Below the pieces are notes generated by a model. It worked only from the letters and a program-made list of their open reading frames with translations, searched no databases and had not been told where the DNA came from. The translations under genes and the position numbers were made by a program. Shown piece after piece: positions 42,771 to 46,879 of a DNA stretch of 64,000 nucleotides (positions are counted from its first letter, which is position 1; each line of letters opens with the position of its first letter). The stretch is taken from assembly GCF_041821065.1 (NCBI RefSeq), contig NZ_JBGUAX010000007.1, positions 124,001 through 188,000 on the forward strand, in the 5' to 3' direction. This DNA comes from Egicoccus sp. AB-alg2 (GTDB lineage: Bacteria; Actinomycetota; Nitriliruptoria; Nitriliruptorales; Nitriliruptoraceae).

Positions 42771-42970
42771 CGATCGGTCGCCTGGCCGCCGTCGCGGCGC
42801 GGCCGGGTGTCGACCGGTCGCGTGCTCCCCTGCCGGCGGTCGCGCCGGGCCTGGCGGCGGGCGCTGCGCTCGGTGCGACGCGCGCGGCGGGTCTGGCGGC
42901 GAGCCGCGGCGTCCGCCCGGGCCGCGGCGGTCTCGAGTGTGGCGAGGTCGGCGAGTTGGTCCGGGTGCAT
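42767..42970 (-). CDS. Arginine/alanine-rich 67-residue protein coupled to the MFS gene
   Basis: ATG 42970 has CAGGAG 6 bases upstream, and the ORF ends TGA at 42767, overlapping the MFS start by 4 bases. The first 20 residues form an amphipathic helix (HPDQLADLATLETAAARADA). The rest is strongly basic (TRRARRTERSARRQARRDRR). It could bind nucleic acid or the membrane surface, or serve only to couple translation. The operator array lies directly upstream. No homologue is recognised. Confidence 0.6.
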   Translation of the reverse strand: MHPDQLADLATLETAAARADAAARRQTRRARRTERSARRQARRDRRQGSTRPVDTRPRRDGGQATDR

Positions 42971-42995
42971 GGCGCGCTCCTGCGGTACGGTGACT

Positions 42996-43074
42996 GCAAA
43001 GATTTCTTTGCGATGACGTCACCCTACACCGCAAAGAGATCTTTGCAAACACTTCTTTGCAAAGTTCGCTTTGC
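42996..43074. promoter_or_regulatory. Array of four 16-bp operators GCAAAG-N4-CTTTGC
   Basis: Sites at 42996-43011 (N4 ATTT), 43031-43046 (AGAT), 43045-43060 (left arm GCAAAC) and 43059-43074 (TTCG). The last three share two bases with their neighbour, giving a 14-base period; the first is 35 bases away. They fill the 120 bases between the divergent starts of the 67-residue/MFS unit and the ArsR-type regulator, and form an AT-rich island in GC-rich DNA. Very probably bound by that regulator. Confidence 0.85.
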
Positions 43075-43090
43075 GATCGGGAGCGCGCGC

Positions 43091-43774
43091 GTGACGGACC
43101 AGAAGACGATCGGCGAGGAGCGGCCGGTGTGGCCGCCGGCCGACGACCGGGTGCTGGACGCGGCGGCGCTGAAGGCGCTCGCACATCCGGTGCGATTCCA
43201 GTTGGTGGAGCTCCTCGGCGAGCACGGCCCGTCGACCGCCAGTGCGCTCGGCCGGATGATCGGCGAGAACAGCGGCTCCACGAGCTACCACCTGCGCCAG
43301 CTCGCGGCCCAGGGGCTCATCGAGGAGGCGACGGAGCTGGGCTCCAAGCGCGACCGGTACTGGCGGCTCGTGCGTGGCGGGTGGACGCTGGAGGGCTTCG
43401 AGCTCCTCGAGCGCGAGGACACCCGTGACGACGCCCTGATGGTGCTGGACGAGGTCCTGCGTGCCCGCTTCAACAGCCTTCGCCGGTGGCATCGCGACGG
43501 CAAGCGGTGGGGCGACGACTGGGTGGAGTCCACGATCGAGATGACGGGCCGGTTCCGTCTGACCCGCGACGAGTTGCGCGACATGCGCGACGAACTGGTC
43601 GCCGTCATCGACCGCTATCGCGACCTGCAGGCCGACCGGCGCGAGAGGCCGGGTGCCGAGCCGTCCGACGTCGTGCCCGTGCGCGTGCAGGTGGACGCCT
43701 ACCCGACCGGCGACCCGCCGGACGACGCCGACGGCGGCGCCGCTGCCGAGGCCGCCTCGGACGACGCCCCCTGA
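43091..43774 (+). CDS. ArsR-type (HTH_20) transcription regulator
   Basis: A 227-residue regulator. The winged helix is LDAAALKALAHPVRFQLVEL, STASALGRMIGENSGSTSYHLRQLAAQGLIEEATE, with a basic wing (GSKRDRYWRLV). A helical C-terminal part follows (VLRARFNSLRRWHRDGKRWG, RDELRDMRDELVAVIDRYRD), then an acidic Ala/Asp tail. No metal-binding Cys pair is seen, so it is not a classic metal sensor. It is divergent from an MFS exporter, a frequent pairing in actinobacteria in which the exporter is repressed. GTG 43091 has GGGAG 7 bases upstream. Confidence 0.88.
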   Translation: MTDQKTIGEERPVWPPADDRVLDAAALKALAHPVRFQLVELLGEHGPSTASALGRMIGENSGSTSYHLRQLAAQGLIEEATELGSKRDRYWRLVRGGWTLEGFELLEREDTRDDALMVLDEVLRARFNSLRRWHRDGKRWGDDWVESTIEMTGRFRLTRDELRDMRDELVAVIDRYRDLQADRRERPGAEPSDVVPVRVQVDAYPTGDPPDDADGGAAAEAASDDAP

Positions 43775-43790
43775 CACGCGACACCGGACC

Positions 43791-43972
43791 GCGAGCGCCG
43801 TGAGGTTTCCGTCGCCCGCGACGGCTTCCCCTCGCCGGCGGGCGTCGCAGCCGCGAACGCCGTGAGGTTTCCGTCGCCTGCGACGGCTTCCCCGCGCCAG
43901 CGGGTGTCGCAGCCGCGAACGCCAAGAGGTTTCCGTCGCCCGCGACGGCTCCCCTCGTCGGCCCCGCTGCCG
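43791..43972. repeat. 62-bp tandem repeat, about 2.9 copies, with internal hairpins
   Basis: Copies begin at 43791, 43853 and 43915 with GCGA(A/G)CGCC and continue with GAGGTTTCCGTCGC. Each contains the palindrome CCGTCGC-N2-GCGACGG (43809-43824, 43871-43886, 43933-43948) followed by GGCTTCCCC or a variant. The array fills the gap between the convergent ArsR-type gene and dnaB. It may act as a multiple terminator or be a REP-like element. Confidence 0.85.
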
Positions 43973-46879
43973 CTACATCGGCGTGGGCATCCCGCCGGCC
44001 CCGCCGCCACCGGGCGCGCCGGACGAGCCCCGCGCGAGGTTGGCGAACTTGGTGAGGTGGTTGAGGAAGGCCAGCTTGACCACGCCGGTGGCACCGTTGC
44101 GGTGCTTGGAGATGATCAGCTCCGCAATGCCCTTGTCCGGGCTGTCCTCGTCGTAGACCTCGTCGCGGTAGATGAAGCTGACGATGTCGGCATCCTGCTC
44201 GATGGAACCGCTTTCACGAAGGTCGGCGAGCTGTGGGCGCTTGTCGGTGCGCGACTCGGGCTGGCGGGAGAGCTGCGACAGCGCGATGACCGGGACGTCG
44301 AGTTCCTTCGCGAGCATCTTCATGCCACGCGAGATCTCCGAGACCTCCTGCTGGCGCGAGTCGGTCTTCTTGTGCGACTGCATCAGCTGCAGGTAGTCGA
44401 CGATCACCAGATCGAGCCCGTGCTTCTGCTTCAGGCGGCGGCACTTCGCACGGATCTCCATCAGGGAGATCGACGGCGTGTCGTCGATGAACAGCGGCGC
44501 CTCCGACAACGCCCCCAGGGCGTCGCCGAGCTTGCGCCAGTCGGTGTCCTCCAACCGGCCGGTACGTAGCTTGGAGGAGTCGATCCGCGCCTCGGAGGAG
44601 AGCATGCGGTTGACGATCTCCAGCTTGCTCATCTCCAGGCTGAAGATGATCGCCGGACGCCGCAGCTTCACGGTCACGAACTGCGCGATCCCGAGGCTGA
44701 GCGAGGAGTTGTGCACGATCAGGTCGTCGGCCACGAAGTTGTGCAGCCCGGGCACCGTGAGGTCGAAGACCCGTTCCTCACCGGCAGGCTCGACCGAAAC
44801 GACCTCGTCCCAGAACACGTCCGAGGTGGCCACCTCGTGTAGCGCCTGGCTGCCGAGGGCTTCGGCGAGCTCCGCCACGAGGCGCCGGGACGGGCGGCGC
44901 TTGCCGACGTGCCAGTTGTGGTTGCGCGGTCGTCCGGTCGTCTCGGAGACGTCGGCCCAGGACCGCTGACCCTTCTCGGCGAGGATCAGGTCCCACACCT
45001 CGATCGGTAACAGGTCGGTGTTGTCGCCCCACGCGCGCGGCGCATCGGAAGTGTGGGGCACGCCGCGACGCTCGACGTACTCGAGCACCTTGGCGCACTG
45101 CTCCTCCTTGGAGAAGATCCCGATCTCCGTCAAGAAGCGCCGGACGTTGGCGGCGTCGCGGATCTCGAGTTCGAACGCTCGGTTGTGGCCCTCGAGGTAC
45201 TTCACCTGCCGTTCCCGGATCCGCGACAGGATCCCGAACCGCAGGAGCAGGTGTTGCACGTCGTGGATGAGCTGCTCCGACACCGAGCAGTAGCTGATGC
45301 CGAAGTAGCCGTGCTCCTCCGCGACCCAGGCGCTGCCATCCGTCGCGAACAGCCGCGACAGGAACAGCGCCATCTGCTCACGGGGGAGCGTGAAGATCGG
45401 CGCGGGCACGAACTTGGTGTGGCTGTCCCTGCCGGCCAGCCCGAGCTCCTCGAGCCGCTGCTGCAGGAAGTTGTCAGCATGGCGGCCGGTGTAATCGAGG
45501 TCCGCAGCCGCTGCGCGGATGCGGGTCACGAGTTCCGCGCTCAGGCCGCGTCGGCCCGACAGCGCCTGGCTCACGACCGAGATGGTGGTGCCGGCTCGTG
45601 CGGCTACATCAGCCCGCGTGACGCGGTCGTGCGCCAGGCCGAAACGGATCGTCCTGGCCTGGGTTCCCTGCTTCGGCTGTACCACACCGATGGTGCCGAA
45701 GGCTGCAGCACAGGCGAGCGCCTCCATTTCGACAGCGACCGATTCCGTGGTCAGTTCCGGCGCGTTCTTCGTGAGGCAGCCATCACCGAGGAGATAGCCG
45801 AGCAGCTTCACCTCAGCAGCGGGAAGGCGCTGGTCACCGAAGAAGTCGATTCGTCGCGGCGCCGCAATGAGATCGCCCGGGCGCAGATCGGTGAGTTGCC
45901 GCCACCCGCGGGGCGTCAGAAATGGGTGATTCGCGGTCGCTCTCGTGCGACGCCCGCTCCGGGTTCGCAAGAGGAAGACGCTTCGAGTGCCGTTGTCGTG
46001 GAACTCCGTGGCATCGACGCCGACCAGCACCCCTGACTCGTCGAGGGCCGCGACCTGGATGGCTTCGCCAGACCGACCGCGCTCGACGAGTTGCTCGATT
46101 GGCGCCCACTCCCCGGTCTTGACGGAAAGTGCTCGGGAACCCACGCTCAGGCACTTGCCCATCGCCGGCCTGGCGGCCAGGATGATCAGGTTCTGGGGCT
46201 GCAGGCCGGCGGTGAGGCGGTCGAGGTCGTCGAAGCCGGTGGACAGGCCGGTGACCTCGGAGTTCTGCTCGGCGAGCTTCTCGATCTGCTCGAACGACTC
46301 GTTGAGCAGGTCGCCGAGACGGGCGTAGTCGGCCGTGGTCGAGGTCTGGGCGACCTCGTAGATGATGGACTCGGCCCGGTCGACGACCGTCTCCGCGTCC
46401 TCGGTCGCCTCGTAGCCGAGCTTGGCGACCGCCGTGCCCGCGTCGATGAGGCGACGCAGCAACGCCCGCTCGCGCACGATGCGGGCGTAGAAGGCGGCGT
46501 TGGCCGCGGTCGGCACGGCGACCGTCAGGTCGTGCAGCGCCGCCGGGCCGCCCACCTCGTCGAGGCGGTCGCGGCGGGCGAGCCACTCCGTCAGCGTGAC
46601 GGTGTCGATGGGCTCGCCGGCGGCCAGCAGGTCGCGGATGCCCTCGAAGACGGTGCGGTGCGCGTTGCGGTAGAAGTGCTCGGGTTCGAGCACCTCGATC
46701 GCCTCGCTGGCCGCGTTGCGCGACAGCAACGCGGCACCGAGGACGGAGACCTCGGCCTCCAGCGAGTGCGGCGGGACGCGGTCGTAACCACGTCCCGCCG
46801 ACCCGTTGGCGCGCGGGCCTGCTGGTGGTGCTGCCGGCGCGTCGAGTGGTCCGCTCGGTGGCGGGGGGAAGTCACTCAT
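43973..46879 (-). CDS. dnaB: Replicative DNA helicase DnaB with an intein in the Walker A motif
   Basis: A 968-codon ORF that should yield a 486-residue DnaB after splicing. The N-terminal domain (about 30-150) has [21 protein letters not shown]. The helicase domain starts [20 protein letters not shown] and reaches AARPAMGK, where the P-loop is interrupted by the intein. It resumes with [11 protein letters not shown] and [15 protein letters not shown], then VDYLQLM (Walker B), [23 protein letters not shown] and [10 protein letters not shown] Pro/Ala-rich start and Gly-rich C-terminus are extra. It is the last gene of the rpsF-ssb-rpsR-rplI-dnaB unit, 44 bases after rplI. Confidence 0.96.
44708..46153 (-). 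mobile_element. DnaB intein (482 residues) with LAGLIDADG endonuclease and extra HTH regions
   Basis: The intein spans DnaB residues 243-724, from Cys (CLSVGSRAL, block A) to the His-Asn end ([20 protein letters not shown]), with Ser as +1 residue. Block B is [14 protein letters not shown]. The LAGLIDADG motifs are LLGYLLGDG (about 359-367) and [11 protein letters not shown] (about 505-515). Between them, residues 419-463 ([40 protein letters not shown]) closely resemble the DNA-binding domain of LacI-family repressors. A second HTH-like stretch lies at 638-676. All splicing residues look intact, so splicing should work. Confidence 0.95.

Follow-up and report, generated by a model that had tools for sequence, protein, structure and literature searches.

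Dispersed intergenic arrays of a 26-bp palindrome at a near-constant pitch of about 62 bp in Egicoccus

Downstream of dnaB in Egicoccus sp. AB-alg2 lies a short tandem repeat with a palindrome in every copy, and the question raised by this locus is what such an array does there. In the window (the whole stretch of DNA analyzed, 64,000 nucleotides), TRF together with repeat finding placed the array at 43789-43962, with a 62-bp period, 2.8 copies, 89% matches, and a score of 285. The copies start at 43789, 43851, and 43913; the second is 92% identical to the first, and the third shows 71% identity across the full 62 bp, the repeat giving out near 43962. CCGTCGC-N2-GCGACGG is present in every copy and forms the middle of a 26-bp palindrome (12+2+12 bp) located at 43804-43829 (where the central dinucleotide is CC), 43866-43891, and 43928-43953. 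The two 36-bp spacers between these palindromes (43830-43865 and 43892-43927) are identical at 31/36 positions, and the right arms are degenerate: GACGGCTTCC. The array takes up nearly all of the gap between the stop, at 43774, of a plus-strand gene for an HTH_20 (ArsR/MarR-like winged-helix) protein (42956-43774; ORF as listed, start position provisional) and the stop, at 43973, of the convergent minus-strand gene for the intein-containing replicative helicase DnaB (43973-46879). The nearly three hairpin-bearing copies and the convergent arrangement described in the first-pass annotation were thus confirmed. The intein of this DnaB has Intein_splicing and LAGLIDADG_3 domains as well as a LacI-like/HTH_3 stretch at residues 421 to 464, which scored under the LacI cut-off.

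The search for further copies, a check proposed at first pass, showed that the window array is not unique. The window's own genome (G000; 4.84 Mb, 29 contigs, a draft 98.5% complete) holds 13 arrays of two to four palindromes each, 38 palindromes in all, and the congener G003 (3.98 Mb, one contig) holds seven arrays and two single copies. A covariance model built from 40 units found 12 of the G000 arrays, and all listed G000 matches with E < 0.005 fell within these. A looser pattern, GGTTTCC-N12-GGAAACC with up to two mismatches, hit 34 places in G000 compared with 1 for the reversed pattern used as the control, and added the 13th array (A13; C10:133401/133463/133526), which has a different inner sequence. 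All 26 G000 places with at most one mismatch were in arrays, none being solitary, while the eight with two mismatches were divided between arrays (two) and scattered positions (six); in G003, 9/10 places with at most one mismatch were in arrays. The exact 12-mer GGTTTCCGTCGC occurred 18 times in G000 (8 forward, 10 reverse) compared with 0 for its control. The model missed A13 and a single G003 copy (B9s), both caught by the looser pattern, and members that have diverged further may still be missing from the count.

No array was found in the other two congeners, G001 (77% complete) and G002, where the best covariance-model match reached only E 0.0089. The pattern search gave 0 places in the incomplete G001 (control, 3) and 6 in G002, every one with two mismatches (control, 1). 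Since neither genome yielded an array, members of the genus can do without the family. Class-wide, 9/66 genomes, G000 and G003 included, had a model match at E <= 0.001; the seven beyond these two had single matches, and there was no array among the eight loci read. The first-pass annotation had also stressed the closeness of the array to a replication operon. The position is correct, but its significance looks incidental, because sister arrays lie beside many other genes and because no match of at least 17/24 was found at the dnaB 3' end at 28/29 loci of relatives, the remaining locus having one chance-level 17/24 match more than 1 kb off.

The conserved unit is the 26-bp palindrome GGTTTCC-N12-GGAAACC, with a 12-bp arm on each side of a free dinucleotide and three positions invariant across the 40 units. 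The inner arm comes as GTCGC or CGCGC, and within the 40 units one arm changes without the other; in A13 and B9s, which are outside this alignment, both arms differ at the inner-arm position. No arm covariation was found in the 40 units (82.7% paired cells versus 83.4% in shuffles; score, 0.102 versus 0.115). This independent variation favors recognition of the arms in DNA, as half-sites, over the upkeep of an RNA stem.

The spacing between palindromes proved particularly strict. Palindromes were called in 6- to 9-kb loci regardless of spacing, leaving out weak solitary matches at distances of hundreds of bases or more, and the 35 intervals of 20 arrays were 61 bp (2 intervals), 62 bp (17), or 63 bp (16), with a mean of 62.4 bp. 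Intervals within one array are often copies by descent, so that the independent sample is nearer 20 than 35; the mean of the array means was 62.44 (standard error, 0.11), corresponding to 6.00 helical turns at an assumed 10.4 bp per turn (5.95 at 10.5). The three intervals of array A2 are 62, 61, and 63 bp and sum to three times 62. In a scan for pairs of alike 26-bp palindromes 35 to 100 bp apart, 12/15 pairs in the G000 sample were at 62 or 63 bp (the others at 48, 66, and 82) and 3/4 in the G003 sample were at 62 (the other at 90), these samples including stretches picked for known arrays. An indel simulation of the pitch, run with assumed rates, serves as an illustration.

The spacers are 35 to 37 bp long and, in the 13 arrays with at least two of them, are alike within an array (25/37 to 37/37 identity in the better of the left and right registers), with the exception of one of the three spacers of A2. 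Some are near-identical (A7, 37/37; A10, 36/36) and others have diverged (A9, 27/36; A12, 25/37), and the pitch of the diverged arrays is as strict as that of the fresh ones. Between arrays the likeness is slight: the mean best local score was 9.58, where dinucleotide shuffles scored 9.00 ± 0.16 and genomic pieces of matched GC content 8.90 ± 0.26; from this small excess, the arrays may share an origin. Two arrays are common to G000 and G003, and at both of them the palindromes have diverged less than the spacers. A9 and its counterpart B1 occupy the same junction with three copies at a 62-bp pitch in each species; aligned ungapped and in register, their palindromes are identical at 57/78 positions (73%) and their spacers at 20/72 (28%; shuffle mean, 25.9; standard deviation, 3.5; chance, 36%), and their 40-bp flanks agree at 30/80 positions. 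For A11 and B8, the facing palindromes agree at 20/26 and 21/26 positions (41/52, 79%) and the spacer, still recognizable, at 21/36 (58%; shuffle mean, 11.7; standard deviation, 2.5). Given this recognizable spacer and the slight between-array excess, shared descent may account for part of the pitch.

Several known systems were compared. CRISPR arrays, in which palindromic repeats are separated by spacers unique within the array, are suggested by the 26-bp palindromic repeat and the 35- to 37-bp spacers but were ruled out, since here the two to four repeats enclose spacers that are near-copies of one another (13 arrays with at least two spacers). Mycobacterial MIRU/VNTR loci are likewise actinobacterial tandem arrays that are short, lie between genes, and differ in copy number, but their unit length differs from locus to locus, whereas it is 61 to 63 bp at all 20 arrays here.

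The REP/BIME likeness suggested at first pass holds as a description, the elements being dispersed, extragenic, palindromic, and regular in pitch, and breaks down at the end tags and the transposase. As with REPs, the palindromes are short, dispersed, and, by heuristic gene calls, mostly extragenic. REPs usually exceed 100 copies per genome (PMC2817692), and 38 copies were found in G000. The unpaired GTAG or CGTC end tag by which REP superfamilies are described (PMC3733652) was absent from the 40 units with their flanks. No Y1 tyrosine transposase (RAYT; PF01797) was found in G000, while 5/14 control genomes were positive, and a RAYT-driven REP was ruled out on this basis. CGTC-tagged REPs (PMC3733652) are also dispersed palindromes, mostly downstream of genes and with no dedicated transposase, but they have an end tag, 8- to 9-bp stems, and mostly head-to-head dimers; here CGTC lies within the 12-bp arm and the end tag is missing. 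BIME-2 elements of Escherichia coli are tandem REP arrays bound by DNA gyrase (PMC2817692 and PMC6379681). Like the G000 arrays, they are short extragenic palindromes in evenly spaced tandem groups of variable copy number, but their units alternate in orientation and go with RAYT transposases, whereas the G000 arrays repeat one near-symmetric palindrome, for which orientation is undefined, at a fixed 62.4-bp pitch. The inter-REP segments of Stenotrophomonas BIMEs are reportedly of substantially variable length, compared with 35 to 37 bp here. The arrays resemble the known REP/BIME kind but differ in the fixed pitch, the missing end tag, and the Y1 transposase, which was not found; by analogy, they may work like BIME-2 but fall outside the tagged REPs on end tag and transposase. 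No report of these arrays was found in the open PMC literature, as judged mostly from listings.

The favored, still tentative, reading is that the array is a phased binding platform for a putative dimeric protein, to which we assign a probability of about 0.42. It is built on the palindromes, their pitch and dispersal, the stronger conservation of palindrome than spacer at two arrays, and the independent variation of the arms. A dimeric DNA-binding protein would recognize the 26-bp palindrome through the half-site GGTTTCCGTCGC, leaving the 2 bp at its center free. With two to four sites spaced six helical turns apart, the bound dimers would come to lie on the same face of the DNA, so that they could bind together or wrap it. 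From intergenic gaps, mostly right behind stop codons, the arrays would then act on supercoiling or chromosome structure, as reported for the gyrase-binding BIME-2 of E. coli. The protein-binding array proposed at first pass thus fits as a description of palindromes at regular pitch, the binding itself being predicted. Counting against the platform, non-coding repeats of 60 to 64 bp that lack this palindrome also occur, as described below; two G003 copies stand alone, which phased sites do not predict; the family was not found in G001 or G002; A12, the dnaX-recR array, is absent in 3/3 congeners (G001, G002, and G003); and the right arms in the window are degenerate.

The strongest rival, although rather unlikely, is passive tandem duplication, in which replication or repair in this genus would duplicate the DNA between genes about 62 bp at a time, more readily around palindromes; these would be 3'-end hairpins of the ordinary kind, or relics, and the pitch would be mutational and unselected. 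The near-copies within arrays such as A7 and A10, together with spacers that differ between arrays, are what such a process would leave, as is a copy number of 1 to 3 at shared places. Further support came from TRF, which found non-coding 60- to 64-bp repeats without the family palindrome in G000 (C9:46130, 62 bp; C12:53540, 64 bp, with a called ORF over 43% of it), G003 (5121, 61 bp; 926265, 60 bp), and G002 (C1:278504, 62 bp). The G000 (854,628 bp) and G003 (400 kb, 8/20 stretches) samples were partly chosen for known family members, and those of G002 and of G010, a member of another genus (400 kb each), without knowledge of them; A7 was dropped from the non-coding count because a spurious ORF gave it a coding look. 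Since repeats of this size occur without the palindrome in three congeners, the pitch is not tied to the GGTTTCC site, and it seems to be a trait of the genus Egicoccus, wider than the palindrome. Periods 61, 62, and 64 were not seen in 116 loci (824,213 bp) of other bacteria that had been selected in a scan for a different motif, which makes the pitch look genus specific and also suits duplication; period 63 appeared in 8 rows and period 60 in 2, coding sequence possibly included. A collection-wide scan for GACGGAAACC pairs 48 to 78 bp apart, in which records near the window's genome may be absent, gave, among the matches listed, no pair at period 61 or 62 and four at 63, and 22/40 pairs read had an unrelated CRISPR-like repeat ending CCCC..GGGGACGGAAACC. 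Duplication is opposed by the diverged arrays A9 and A12, which hold the pitch as strictly as fresh ones, by the better conservation of the palindrome, and by the other non-coding periods in the same samples (30, 32, 33, 38, 45, 57, 82, and 135 bp in G000; 33 and 38 bp in G003). To our knowledge, no duplication process has a fixed 62-bp step.

Some of these other repeats are worth recording individually. The 64-bp repeat of G000 contig C12 (L331:13540-13740; 3.1 copies) contains another inverted repeat, TGAAGGCCC..GGGCCTTCA, and sits between genes read from their ORFs as folB-like and folK-like. In G002, where no GGTTTCC array was found, a 62-bp repeat (L366:18504-18732; 3.7 copies) has a weak hairpin by eye. 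Non-coding 38-bp repeats form a second size class in three members of the bacterial family: G000 (L321:19270-19885 and L323:10503-10844), G003 (L356:15973-16096), and G010 (L399:1452-1576, the one non-coding repeat seen there). G000 also has a 76-bp repeat (L310:6636-6813) and an 82-bp repeat with the hairpin GTACTTCAA..TTGAAGTAC (L322:18450-18630), both with 100% matches.

The next rival, that the arrays are bidirectional terminators or 3' RNA-stabilizing hairpins doubled or tripled for strength, is considered unlikely. It draws on the surroundings, as a called gene end lies within 131 bp at 17/20 places (heuristic gene calls; A13 and B9s left out). Convergent gaps were assigned to A3, A6, A8, A10, B5, and B7s, and further to A9 and B1 (reverse-strand reading by eye) and to B9s as the A8 ortholog; the A2 gap is divergent, and the remaining arrays are co-directional or unsettled. 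At the A8 junction, where G000 has two copies, G003 has a single perfect 12-bp family hairpin, and G002 has a strong hairpin that is unrelated to the family and whose tail is T-rich. Folded as RNA, the window array does slightly better than shuffled sequence for either strand (z, -1.99 each; 5 and 8 of 200 shuffles folded as well), and no separate stem of at least 8 bp lies within 150 bp of it. On the other hand, no T-tract was seen by eye after family copies in the 40 units with flanks, no terminator-like site was called at the window array, the arms do not covary, and termination does not call for a fixed pitch of six turns. Separate perfect stems of 9 to 15 bp lie within 150 bp at 6/22 places (A7, A10, B2, B3, B4, and B8), the A10/B8 stem being conserved between species and one B2 stem having a T-rich tail; these strong hairpins argue that termination would be served elsewhere at those six places. 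The triple terminator proposed at first pass is thus unsupported, and intrinsic termination was rejected as the main function in view of the missing T-tract, the lack of a called site, the lack of covariation, and the separate stems; at the window array, which has no such stem, the copies may still act in termination. A structured RNA is likewise unsupported, as there were no compensatory stem changes and an Rfam scan of seven loci (8/13 arrays, window included) gave no match overlapping an array.

The weakest of these rivals, also quite unlikely, is that a recombinase or transposase targets the 12+2+12 palindrome and thereby spreads the arrays and rearranges them. Its support comes from congeners whose gaps are empty or shorter at A3 (absent in G002 and G003), A7 (absent in G002), and A12, and from an inversion. 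The gene-sized segment between A10 and A11 stands inverted relative to its neighbors in G003. In G000 the homologous block (1329 aligned columns, 72.8%) extends between palindrome 3 of A10 and palindrome 2 of A11; its limits in G003 are B7s and palindrome 2 of B8. Since the block ends inside palindromes at both sides, the inversion endpoints lie within the arrays. Ordinary recombination between inverted repeats would also yield such an inversion, however, and mobility is further opposed by the lack of PF01797 in G000, by gaps at A3, A7, and A12 that showed no target duplication by eye, and by the nearly unrelated spacers of different arrays. In the inverted segment (L076:3692-4990 and L129:4070-5360), the reading frame is longer in G003 and looks interrupted in G000.

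A bolder form of the phased platform, which we hold to be unlikely, would define the element class by its pitch and not by its sequence. A single architectural protein would use the intergenic arrays of the genus with a six-turn period (60 to 64 bp) as platforms for wrapping DNA. The palindrome would change from array to array and from species to species at an unchanged pitch, and the arrays would double as hot junctions for gene inversion.

REP-like elements have mostly been defined by sequence and transposase, whereas the strictest trait here is an absolute distance, close to six helical turns, that persists as the spacer sequence turns over. A half-turn shift of the pitch makes testable the old question of whether arrays of extragenic palindromes are selfish or are platforms that structure the chromosome, and the arrays would also supply a worked case of inversion at such elements.
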